Shown: piece by piece, positions 14,454-34,416 of the stretch
Layout of the letters: every line of letters begins with the position of its first letter
Position numbering within the stretch: position 1 is the stretch's first letter
Source of the DNA: Olsenella timonensis
GTDB lineage: Bacteria > Actinomycetota > Coriobacteriia > Coriobacteriales > Atopobiaceae
Length of the DNA: 64,000 nt
NCBI RefSeq assembly: GCF_900119915.1
Contig: NZ_LT635455.1
Coordinates: 992,001 to 1,056,000, forward strand
Direction of reading: 5' to 3'
The notes under the pieces: generated by a model
What the model saw: the letters and a program-made list of their open reading frames with translations, nothing else
Databases searched by the model: none
What the model was told of the DNA's origin: nothing
Made by a program: the position numbers and the translations under genes

Positions 14454-15842
14454 TCAGAGGCCGAGTCCGAGCGCGGCGGCGAGCGCGTCGAGGTAGTCGC
14501 CCGGGTTGGGAACGCTCGAGCAGACGACCGCGCCGCGCCCGCGCAGCTCGTCGACGAGGTGGCCCTGGGTGTCGCCGTCGAGCGTGAGGCGGTCAAAGTT
14601 GAACATCACCTCCGGCAGCACGACCACCTCGCCCGCGAGGTCATCGGGGAGCTGCGCGAGCAGGTCGGCGGCGACGATGAGGCCCGTGACGTTGACGTCG
14701 CCCCCGAAGTAGTCGTTTCGGATCGCCCTCGCCCGGGCGCGGCCGGTGGGTGACAGCGTGCGACAGAAGGTGTCGATGGTCTCCAGGGCAGCCTCGCCGC
14801 ACACCAGCGAGGCGGAGAGCCCCCTTGCCGCAAGCTCGTCGTCGACCGAGCGAAGCTCCGCGGCTCGTGTTCGCGAGACGAGGCTCGTCTCGTCGAGGAA
14901 GCTCCTGAGCATCCCGATGCCGTCGTAGAACTGCGGGTAGCCGTCGTAGGTCTCGGCCGGGGGGACCGGGAGGCGGGCGTCGACGTAGAACTCGTCGGAG
15001 AGCTGGAAGCGCGTGATGCCGAGCGCGCTTCTCGCACGCTCCTGGTAGGGCTCGACGAGCGACACGACCGCGCGCGACGCCTCGACGTCATCGGAGTAGG
15101 AGCTCTTGAACCGGCGGCTGTGCTTGGTGTACCCGAGCGGGACCACCGCCAGCGAGGTGATGCCGGGGTGCGCCTCGACCCAGTCGAGCGTCGCGACGAG
15201 CTCGTCGCCGTCGTTGACGCCCGGGCACAGCACGATCTGCGCATGGACCTCGATGCCACCCGCGAGCAGACGCTCGAGCACCTCGACGCCGCGCGCGGCA
15301 CGGGGGCCGATCAGCGAGCGTCGGACCTCGGGCGTGATCGCGTGGATGGAGACGTTCATCGGCGAGAGGCCGCAGGTGACGATGCGCTCGGCCTCCTCGT
15401 CGGTGACGTTGGTGAGCGTCACGAAGTTGCCCTGGAGGAAGGAGAGGCGGTAGTCGTCGTCGCGCAGGGTGAGGGTGGGGCGGGCCTCGGGGGGCAGCAT
15501 GGCCATGAAGCAGAACTGGCAGGCGTTCACGCAGGTGCGCACGCCGTCGAAGAGCACGTCGGTGAAGTCGATGCCCCAGTCCTGGCCAGGCTCTCGCCAG
15601 AGCTGGCAGGTGGCGGTGGTGTCGTCGCGCGGGTCAAGGACCTCGAGCTCGCAGGCGGCTCCGTCCGCCTCCCAGCGCCAGTCGATGAGGTCACGCGGCT
15701 CGACGCCGTTCACGCGGACGATGCGCATGCCGGGCTCGACGCCCGCCTCCCAGGCTGGGCTGCCCTCCTCGACCCCGGCGACCCAGGCGCCTCTCGCCCG
15801 CGGCCTCGTCGAGGCGTAGTCGGCGCGCGTCTGATCGGCCAT
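14454..15842 (-). CDS. DUF512 radical-SAM protein with N-terminal PDZ domain
   Basis: A 462-residue protein. Residues about 18-60 form a PDZ-like segment (GSPAWEAGVEPGMRIVRVNG). A radical-SAM-type cysteine motif CX3CX2C follows at C104, C108 and C111 (RTCVNACQFCF). The remainder, with LSFLQGNFVTLTN, VSIHAITPEVR and QIVLCPGVNDG, is the DUF512 / COG1625 architecture. Members commonly sit beside der in Firmicutes and Actinomycetota, yet their reaction is not established. The ATG at 15842 follows GGGGGG. It is the first gene of the long operon, downstream of the repeat-bearing intergenic region. Confidence 0.9.
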   Translation of the reverse strand: MADQTRADYASTRPRARGAWVAGVEEGSPAWEAGVEPGMRIVRVNGVEPRDLIDWRWEADGAACELEVLDPRDDTTATCQLWREPGQDWGIDFTDVLFDGVRTCVNACQFCFMAMLPPEARPTLTLRDDDYRLSFLQGNFVTLTNVTDEEAERIVTCGLSPMNVSIHAITPEVRRSLIGPRAARGVEVLERLLAGGIEVHAQIVLCPGVNDGDELVATLDWVEAHPGITSLAVVPLGYTKHSRRFKSSYSDDVEASRAVVSLVEPYQERARSALGITRFQLSDEFYVDARLPVPPAETYDGYPQFYDGIGMLRSFLDETSLVSRTRAAELRSVDDELAARGLSASLVCGEAALETIDTFCRTLSPTGRARARAIRNDYFGGDVNVTGLIVAADLLAQLPDDLAGEVVVLPEVMFNFDRLTLDGDTQGHLVDELRGRGAVVCSSVPNPGDYLDALAAALGLGL

Positions 15843-15938
15843 GTCGCGACCCCCCGTTCTTCTCGCCCGGACGCTGCGGGGCGCTCTCCTCGTTCCCCTA
15901 CGATACCCAATATGCGCTTTCCTACATAATTCGCCCCG

Positions 15939-16021
15939 AAAACGTTGGAAGTCGCGTATCCAGAAGCCTTAGTACGCGAATTCCAACAGAACAGAGGGCA
16001 AAAACGTTGGGAGTCGCGTAT
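15939..16021. repeat. Three copies (direct, inverted, direct) of an 18-bp motif upstream of the DUF512-der operon
   Basis: ACGTTGGAAGTCGCGTAT (15942-15959), its reverse-complement-like TACGCGAATTCCAAC (15973-15987) and ACGTTGGGAGTCGCGTAT (16004-16021) fill most of this 206-bp intergenic gap. An additional inverted pair CCCAATA / TATTGGG (15906-15912 and 16020-16026) flanks them. The copies are AT-richer than the surroundings and sit upstream of the DUF512 start, so they look like regulator-binding sites. Confidence 0.6.
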
Positions 16022-16048
16022 TGGGTGAACGAGAAGAGCGTGCGCTCG

Positions 16049-16891
16049 CTACTCCCCCACCAGCTCCGCGATGCGCGTGCGCACAGCCTCGATCTGGCTC
16101 GCGGGCGTGCTCGCGCCGGCGGTGATTCCGATCACGTCTGCTCCCTCGAACCACTCGGTTCGCAGCTCGTCCGCGCCCTCGACGTGGTGCGTGCGCGGGC
16201 AGCGGGCCGCCGATATCTCGGCGAGGCGCGTCGTGTTGGCGGAGTTGCGCCCGCCGATGACCACGACGACGTCGGCCTGGCGCGCGAGCTCGTCGGCGGC
16301 CGCCTGATGCCCCGAGGTGGCCTCGCAGATGGTGTTGATGACGCGGACCTCTTCGGCTTGGTCGAGCAGGGCTTCGACGACCTCGGCGAGCAGGGTCCGG
16401 CGGGCCGTGGTCTGAACGACGACGCCGACCTTGCGCGCCGACGGGCAGGCACGCGCCTCGTCGGCCGAGCCCACGACCCTCGCGCCGGGCGCATGGGGAA
16501 GCGTCGCCTCCACCTCGGGGTGGCCGGCCTCACCTACGACGACGACCTGGTAGCCCTCTCTCGAGAGGCGCTCGGCTGCCAGGTGGACCTTCTTGACGAA
16601 GGGGCAGGTGGCGTCGAGCACGCGCGCGCAGAGCTCCCGGGCCCGGGCCTCCTCGGCGGGCGCCGTGCCGTGGGTGCGCAGCAGCAGCGTGTCGCCCGCC
16701 GCGTCCTCCGGGGAGTCCACGGCGTCGACGCCGAGCGCGGCGAGGTCGGCGACGACGCGCGGGTTGTGGATGAGCGGCCCGAGCGTGTGGACGGCGCCGG
16801 AGCGCTCGGCCGCCGCACCCTCGACCATCTGCAGGGCGCGCTCGACGCCGTAGCAGGCGCCCGCCTCGCTCGCGATGCGGATTCTTGCCAC
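16049..16891 (-). CDS. ispH: 4-hydroxy-3-methylbut-2-enyl diphosphate reductase
   Basis: A 280-residue [4Fe-4S] enzyme making IPP and DMAPP in the last MEP-pathway step. The three cluster cysteines are C13 (AGACYGVERAL), C95 (DATCPFVKKVH) and C188 (NTICEATSGHQ). HTLGPLIHNPRVV and THGTAP are also conserved. The start is a GTG directly abutting the plsC stop. The MEP partners dxr and ispG are in the window, but 18-20 kb away in another cluster. Confidence 0.95.
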   Translation of the reverse strand: MARIRIASEAGACYGVERALQMVEGAAAERSGAVHTLGPLIHNPRVVADLAALGVDAVDSPEDAAGDTLLLRTHGTAPAEEARARELCARVLDATCPFVKKVHLAAERLSREGYQVVVVGEAGHPEVEATLPHAPGARVVGSADEARACPSARKVGVVVQTTARRTLLAEVVEALLDQAEEVRVINTICEATSGHQAAADELARQADVVVVIGGRNSANTTRLAEISAARCPRTHHVEGADELRTEWFEGADVIGITAGASTPASQIEAVRTRIAELVGE

Positions 16892-34132: not shown

Positions 34133-34241
34133 GTGCTCTTCCCTTCTGATGGGTTCGGTGCAACGCCCATGATTCTACGACAAGACGGTCCTTCTCGCCC
34201 GGTCGGGCCTCATGGGCGCAGCGTAGCTCGAACGCGTCCGC

Positions 34242-34351
34242 CGAGTGTACGAAAAGACGTGCGCATATCGGCCCATATGAGCAATCGTTCATATGTCAAC
34301 TGCGAAAACGCGCTGCGGAAGAGGAATCGAGCCTCGAGTTTCGTACACTCG
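34242..34351. repeat. Nested inverted repeats upstream of proS
   Basis: CGAGTGTACGAAA (34242-34254) recurs inverted as TTTCGTACACTCG (34339-34351). Between them is a second palindrome, CATATGA-GCAATCGT-TCATATG (34274-34295). The region is AT-richer than its surroundings and lies 110-220 bp before the proS start, within a 284-bp gap where I see no gene. The inner palindrome resembles operators of ArsR/SmtB-type repressors, but no such regulator is in the window. Confidence 0.6.
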
Positions 34352-34416
34352 ACGCATCGCCGCAGACAAGGGCGCGAGCACCGGGCGAGAAGGACGGGCA
34401 TGTGCCGTGCCGGGGG

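Follow-up and report, generated by a model that had tools for sequence, protein, structure and literature searches.

Putative phased protein-binding arrays at gene junctions of Olsenella timonensis and its relatives

The repeats between ispH and a radical-SAM/DUF512 gene of Olsenella timonensis form one array of a dispersed intergenic family, the members of which are regarded here, at a probability of about one half and from their sequence, as putative phased binding arrays of a clade-specific protein. The arrays have a strict geometry, their sites are conserved at fixed junctions, and the family is restricted to one clade, within which some genomes have lost it wholesale. We infer that a single clade-specific, trans-acting protein binds these arrays, and its role may perhaps lie in DNA architecture or in insulating transcription units from one another, as opposed to the control of one operon.

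The array at the ispH-DUF512 junction

The window, i.e., the whole stretch of DNA that was analysed (64,000 nucleotides), covers positions 992001-1056000 of contig C1 of the source genome (G000, 2.18 Mb). The array (15907..16024, unstranded) is located between ispH (LytB, PF02401; 16049..16891, minus strand), which lies upstream with its stop codon 28 bp from site 4, and the radical-SAM/DUF512 gene (PF19238 and PF04459; 14454..15842, minus strand), which lies downstream with its start 68 bp from site 1. It consists of two 56-bp modules, both matching the model R1 on both strands, and holds four copies of a 17-bp motif at 15911-16020 in alternating orientation (-,+,-,+) and exact 31-bp steps, the sites starting at 15911, 15942, 15973 and 16004. 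Site 1 (TATGCGCTTTCCTACAT; 15911..15927, minus strand; PWM score 16.6) is degenerate and site 2 (15942..15958, plus strand; 29.7) is the perfect consensus; these are followed by site 3 (TACGCGAATTCCAACAG; 15973..15989, minus strand, or G000:C1:1007973-1007989 in genome coordinates; 22.4) and site 4 (ACGTTGGGAGTCGCGTA; 16004..16020, plus strand; 26.4). The inner spacers of module 1 (15928..15941) and module 2 (15990..16003), as well as the inter-module spacer (15959..15972), are each 14 bp long. The array stands within an inverted bracket that surrounds most members of the family, with CTTCTCG as its left half (15859..15865) and CGAGAAG as its right half (16030..16036), and no sigma-70-type promoter match was obtained in 15700-16200 of the window.

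A sequence-only reading of this region had described three copies of an 18-bp motif, two direct and one inverted, flanked by a CCCAATA/TATTGGG pair. The direct copies, ACGTTGGAAGTCGCGTAT (15942-15959) and ACGTTGGGAGTCGCGTAT (16004-16021), are indeed the sole window matches at up to 3 mismatches over 18 bp, with 0/100 dinucleotide shuffles giving two matches, and the inverted near-copy (15973-15989, 3/17 mismatches) is real. The three copies stand but their number does not, as the degenerate fourth (15911-15927) lies one 31-bp step before 15942; similarly, CCCAATA (15906-15912) and TATTGGG (16019-16025) are present, but as the outer edges of sites 1 and 4 instead of a separate flanking pair. 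The motif was correctly said to occur nowhere else in the window, and 11 further clusters are found in the rest of the genome. A different intergenic element with a similar bracket (CTTCTCGCCCGG ... CCGGGCGAGAAGG) and an inner inverted repeat (CGAGTGTACGAAAA / TTTCGTACACTCG) was observed at 34133-34416 of the window.

Distribution in the source genome

A search of the whole genome with the 17-mer at up to 3 mismatches yielded 39 matches, 35 of them inside 12 clusters (reversed-pattern control, genome-wide: 4 matches), and all 20 matches at 0-1 mismatch fall inside these clusters. The clusters comprise 11 full four-site arrays and one pair, every one of them at a gene junction; the genome-wide scan that had been proposed as a check on a generic repeat thus returned 46 sites in 12 clusters and not hundreds of scattered copies. 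The covariance model (R1) of the 56-bp module recovers 23 modules in this genome, each on both strands. Nine of the 12 arrays lie within one 364-kb stretch (P =.00025;.0098 with the A4-A6 triplet collapsed), and no origin- or terminus-linked pattern was seen in their placement in this genome, where dnaA is positioned at 1.993 Mb.

According to a simple gene caller, with uncertain calls at junctions A7 and A12, the junctions are convergent at A4 and A5, divergent at A2 and A8, and co-directional at A3, A6, A9, A10 and A11 as well as at A1, between rplX and rplE. Many arrays start 10-35 bp past a stop codon, and the genes at array junctions share no functional theme. The five genes scanned near the A4-A6 triplet (ArsR-type, Cro/C1-type, a phosphoribosyltransferase and two without a Pfam match) offered no partner-gene candidate. 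Two conserved genes without a Pfam match (358 and 347 aa; L080 13542-14618 and 12306-13349) were noted beside A5. The rplX-rplE gap of the ribosomal-protein operon spans 300-944 bp in the 23 genomes measured (e.g., L188 1810-2290), with the rplE end being outside the locus in 6 more, and its layout consists in most genomes of a large hairpin, followed by a varying repeat region and a conserved leader.

Geometry and site sequence

Site positions were located with a weight matrix, in which a perfect site scores 29.7, in 57 arrays from five genomes. Here, the step between neighbouring sites is exactly 31 bp in 147 of 151 cases, the remaining steps being two of 30 bp, one of 32 bp and one gap of 62 bp at which a site is missing. 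The step between modules, which is not imposed by the module covariance model, is as strict (46/48 exact) as that within modules (101/102 exact). The 17-bp core of the site (TACGCGAYTTCCAACGT) is asymmetric, with two strongly conserved blocks, TACGCGA and TTCCAAC, about one turn apart, and the module consensus is CAATACGCGAnTTCCAACGTTTT..AAAACGTTGGAAGTCGCGTATTG.

Half-sites end on their inner side in a tail of either T type (CGTTT) or A type (such as CAGAAT). In the 97 of 105 modules that belong to arrays of exactly 118 or 56 bp, and in which orthologs are not independent, the two halves combine as T/T in 28, T/A or A/T in 66, other in 3 and A/A in none; within the source genome alone, the A/A deficit is borderline (P =.054). 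This asymmetry is unlike a base-paired stem and would agree with each module being occupied by an asymmetric protein complex. The sites of the source genome hold 31.2 bits of information per 31-bp site, as against about 16.5 bits required to locate 46 sites, a surplus that would equally follow from common descent of copied elements.

Conservation, carriers and loss among relatives

Conservation in relatives, which had been raised as a further check, is borne out by the motif being kept at junctions of four related species: these members of the same clade carry 45 more arrays, mostly at identical junctions. The array-rich genomes are G000, G003, G004, G025 and G030, and the named relatives with the motif are Thermophilibacter gallinarum DSM 107455, 'Olsenella uli' An820, Atopobium sp. 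UBA1382 and an uncultured Olsenella bin. By their flanking genes, the 57 arrays sort into 16 groups, one of which merges two neighbouring junctions. In 53 ortholog pairs (matched by flanking genes; 118-bp arrays only, 44/57, as for the paralogs below), identity amounts to.88 for sites,.70 for inner spacers,.66 for inter-module spacers and.49 for flanks, i.e., the adjoining 34 bp on each side, although the comparison is ungapped and the flank contrast is hence overstated. This gradient, from sites at.88 through spacers at 66-70% to flanks at 49%, indicates that sites and geometry are under selection. Paralogs within one genome retain.81 identity in sites,.41 in the inter-module spacer (conserved edges included) and.30 in the flanks; the spacers of paralogs are thus nearly unrelated in sequence, and the 31-bp spacing has outlived the loss of spacer sequence.

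In a nine-protein tree, from which G011 was omitted (coverage.23), all placeable carriers of the TACGCGA family are gathered in one clade (support.99), and a search of 140 genomes of the bacterial family gave a match at 1e-6 in 7, all in this genus. Two of 20 named loci, L061 (Acidobacteria) and L076 (Alphaproteobacteria), gave no R1 match and were taken as chance. Within the clade, G025 has 25 modules against one each in its neighbours G014 and G028, and G016 has two against 12 in its sister G004; the remaining modules are located at junctions of group A8 in G014, of A11 and A4 in G016 and of A10 in G028, and the rplX-rplE junction of G014 bears no trace of an array. Such near-total loss in G014, G028 and G016 suggests that the arrays depend on one trans-acting, losable protein. 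At the ispH-DUF512 junction, 28 relatives had both ends read (G005 gave no DUF512 end and G011 no ispH match), and orthologs of the window array (15907..16024) are present in G003 and G025 only.

Other element families in relatives

The ispH-DUF512 junction is short and devoid of an array in G002, G006, G012, G021 and G029, carries a palindrome at 41-bp steps in G023 and a repeat at 31 bp in G013, and holds a common AATAACGCAC element in G004, G008, G014, G015, G016 and G028. This last element, strongly conserved and about 80 bp long (AATAACGCACAAAATCG ...; L117, L120-L125, L128 and L129, variant included), stands at the place where G000, G003 and G025 have the array, and its variant in G020, G024 and G027 shows compensated arm changes; its distribution on the nine-protein tree is hard to explain by descent alone. 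The rplX-rplE junction likewise harbours palindromes in G009 (at 41 bp), G008, G015 and G029 (at 30 bp) and G011 (at 40 bp). The palindrome ACCCARAWCCRGWTYTGGGT (L242), related to the 41-bp one, occurs at 21 places in G009, 52 in G018 and 36 in G022, with exact 41-bp runs at three places in G009 and steps of often about 135 bp in G018. A second family, TTTGCGATTYGTAACG, has the same geometry as the arrays (L082 4901-5013 in G004; L115 1498-1608 in G016) and coexists with the TACGCGA family in G004.

The loci already fetched were further scanned, irrespective of sequence, for triplets of inverted axes at equal distances (28-43 bp, then 26-45 bp), the best shuffled total being 33 of 51 in 60 loci. 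Apart from the TACGCGA arrays, others of different sequence, with totals of 39-41 and axes 30.5 or 31.0 bp apart, were detected in G016, G004, G011, G010 and G002; weak R1 matches had served to fetch the loci of G016, G010 and G011, so that their spacing is biased, which does not apply to G004 (L082) and G002 (L240). An equally strong match, L233, has axes at 26.5 bp and consists of palindromes beside a Y1 gene. The 26-45 bp scan additionally returned L126 at 41 bp, L205 at 30 bp and L142, which resembles coding DNA, at 30 bp.

Comparison with known systems

The AraC-type regulators RhaR and RhaS, of a kind with two HTH motifs, recognise two inverted, asymmetric half-sites of 17 bp. The arrays resemble these in having two contact blocks one turn apart, inverted sites and about three turns between centres, but differ in having four sites and in recurring at a dozen places, convergent gene ends included, that belong to no common pathway. 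NrdR boxes, placed about 31 bp apart, share the three-turn spacing but are short palindromes at nrd genes. As in MITEs, the arrays are short, dispersed, present in several copies and provided with terminal inverted repeats; unlike in MITEs, no matching transposase or autonomous relative was found in the source genome, and the phasing of old copies is strict. Lrp-type regulators are described as binding sites two or three turns apart and wrapping DNA (PMC2995911), and the arrays share with them a series of sites placed on one face at distances of two or three helical turns and extending over about 100 bp. The dimer site of such regulators is a short near-palindrome, while the array sites are asymmetric and alternate in direction. 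RptR, a repressor that binds repeats, was also compared and differs from the arrays.

REP/BIME/REPIN elements are the nearest described kind. Like the arrays, they are reported as extragenic inverted units in regular alternating orientation whose families differ between related species (PMC2817692, PMC3733652, PMC3116915). In these accounts, their stems are 5-13 bp long and the elements often number more than 100 per genome (PMC2817692, PMC3733652, PMC3116915); those with a RAYT have a short stem, one end of which bears a GTAG or CGTC tag (PMC3733652), and inverted copies of the repeat flank the RAYT gene. The arrays differ from elements so described in their longer arms, in a number of 23 modules per genome and in junctions conserved across species, and their module consensus is devoid of the GTAG or CGTC tag as defined in PMC3733652. 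Y1 genes were detected in 28 of the 31 genomes (no match in G002, G005 and G014), the copy of G004 being broken, and 20 fetched Y1 loci of RAYT size (L219-L238) include many that are flanked by other palindromes, such as GGGGTCTGTCCCC and AAAAGGGGTCTGTCCCCTTTT. The R1 module was absent from the 8 Y1 loci scanned (G000, G003, G025, G030, G004 and G016), a ninth, L218 of G003, being outside the scan. An identity as RAYT-linked REPs was rejected, since neither the tag nor a RAYT association was found in the tests run. No report of such arrays in Olsenella, Atopobium, Thermophilibacter or Collinsella was found in the open-access literature.

Alternative explanations

The sequence-only reading had interpreted the copies as operators through which a cooperatively binding regulator would control the DUF512-der operon. 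Its suggestion of cooperative protein binding holds to the extent that oriented and regularly spaced copies imply cooperativity, and the phased sites fit such putative binding, as the position of the array 68 bp before the DUF512 start fits an operator; specific control of this operon is, in contrast, improbable. Eleven other junctions of the genome, without a common function, carry arrays, and the presence of convergent gene ends and of the ribosomal-protein operon (rplX/rplE) among them argues against an operon-specific regulator; besides, G030 and G004 have no array at the ispH-DUF512 junction although they carry other arrays. The complementarity of the array arms and the stop codon that often closely precedes the array (by 10-35 bp in many) would be expected of an RNA element, i.e., two 3' untranslated region hairpins stabilising or ending transcripts, but the arm pairing is not conserved, which makes this reading very improbable. 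In the 23 modules of the source genome, pairing cells amount to 76.2%, a value reached by 500/500 shuffles (mean 79.1), changes on both sides of the arms are fewer than in shuffles, and RNAalifold retains only 6 pairs; the T-type and A-type inner tails account for arm pairing not exceeding that of shuffles. Moreover, no terminator match was obtained at the window array and no Rfam match up to E=1 in 15800-16150, and a spacing as strict between modules as within them speaks against RNA hairpins. Sites of a site-specific recombinase could also present inverted arms around a GC-rich core and near-identical copies at two junctions; with flanking genes retained on both sides at the shared junctions compared, and no rearrangement seen at arrays, this appears the most remote of the explanations considered.

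A more serious, though still doubtful, competitor is a selfish miniature element (MITE- or BIME-like), for which the sites would be ends for a transposase or spreading machinery, without gain to the host. The inverted ends of the arrays lie inside the inverted CTTCTCG/CGAGAAG bracket: TTCTCG stands on the left in 41/57 arrays and CGAGAA on the right in 36/57 (wrong orientation in 8 and 4), giving 77 oriented matches against a shuffle mean of 2.8, and within 90 bp at least one of the two is present in 49/57 arrays and both in 28. Furthermore, near-identical arrays occur at separate junctions of one genome (G025_b/G025_f, spacer identity.93). Of the 40 full-length arrays with a full-length ortholog, 12 are closer to an array at another junction than to that ortholog; both observations point to copying or gene conversion. 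A swap between G025_b/f and G030_e/i was rejected, as a near-identical duplicate pair at two junctions explains their crosswise likeness, and the flank-based pairing barely moves the identity figures. The junction of a kinase and an ABC gene carries an array of the second (sister) family, TTTGCGATTYGTAACG, in G004 and G016 but none in G000, and is short in G003; at this one junction, empty in G000, the edges of the array in G004 bear short, similar but imperfectly matching sequences (CACCGT / CACCCGT), which may represent a target-site duplication. In other species, different palindromic families occupy the very junctions of the arrays. Set against these points, the sites and 31-bp steps of old copies are retained although their flanks and spacers have diverged, and the best spacer match lies at the own junction in 28/40 arrays, so that homogenisation alone is insufficient. 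No 17-mer at 0-1 mismatch occurs outside the arrays in the source genome, and hence no transposase element with such ends is seen there; the Y1 transposase genes examined in six clade genomes are not flanked by arrays either. A phage or plasmid origin was rejected as well, the idealised array having no match in phage and plasmid collections and the full-module pattern none in viral contigs, in which the 17-mer gave one match (L239), a single site within a phage gene without an array. Copying from one junction to another, in the manner of a small mobile element, was probably how the elements once spread, and the arrays have been kept in place by selection since then; as old copies keep their sites and phase at fixed places, they are distinct from a plain relic. 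A host function is accordingly given even odds, with the selfish account ranked as the less probable of the two.

Interpretation and implications

If the arrays are bound by a clade-specific protein, the four asymmetric sites, each of about 27-31 bp and three helical turns per step, would all face one side of the helix. A module of two inverted sites may then take up a dimer and the whole array a higher oligomer, resulting in a regular assembly of protein along one face of the DNA over about 120 bp, and the TACGCGA and TTCCAAC blocks would suit a protein whose subunits each contact DNA through two helices. As the arrays stand between units that have no function in common, an architectural or insulating role seems likelier than control of a metabolic regulon. 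A bolder and rather unlikely extension is a genus-wide marking, in which an oligomeric protein would read phased arrays at the boundaries of transcription units, the recognition sequence being replaced between close species while position and helical geometry (30-31 bp, and 41 bp in some species) are kept; in such a case, any change in the protein would have to be matched by its dozens of sites.

Should the proposed protein-bound arrays be confirmed, the Olsenella/Thermophilibacter genus of Coriobacteriia would possess undescribed, strictly phased arrays at gene boundaries, along with a binding protein that is predicted to be kept in some species and lost in others. The 31-bp phase would provide a simple experimental handle, and the group as a whole would offer a natural experiment on the joint change of specificity of a DNA-binding protein and its many sites.
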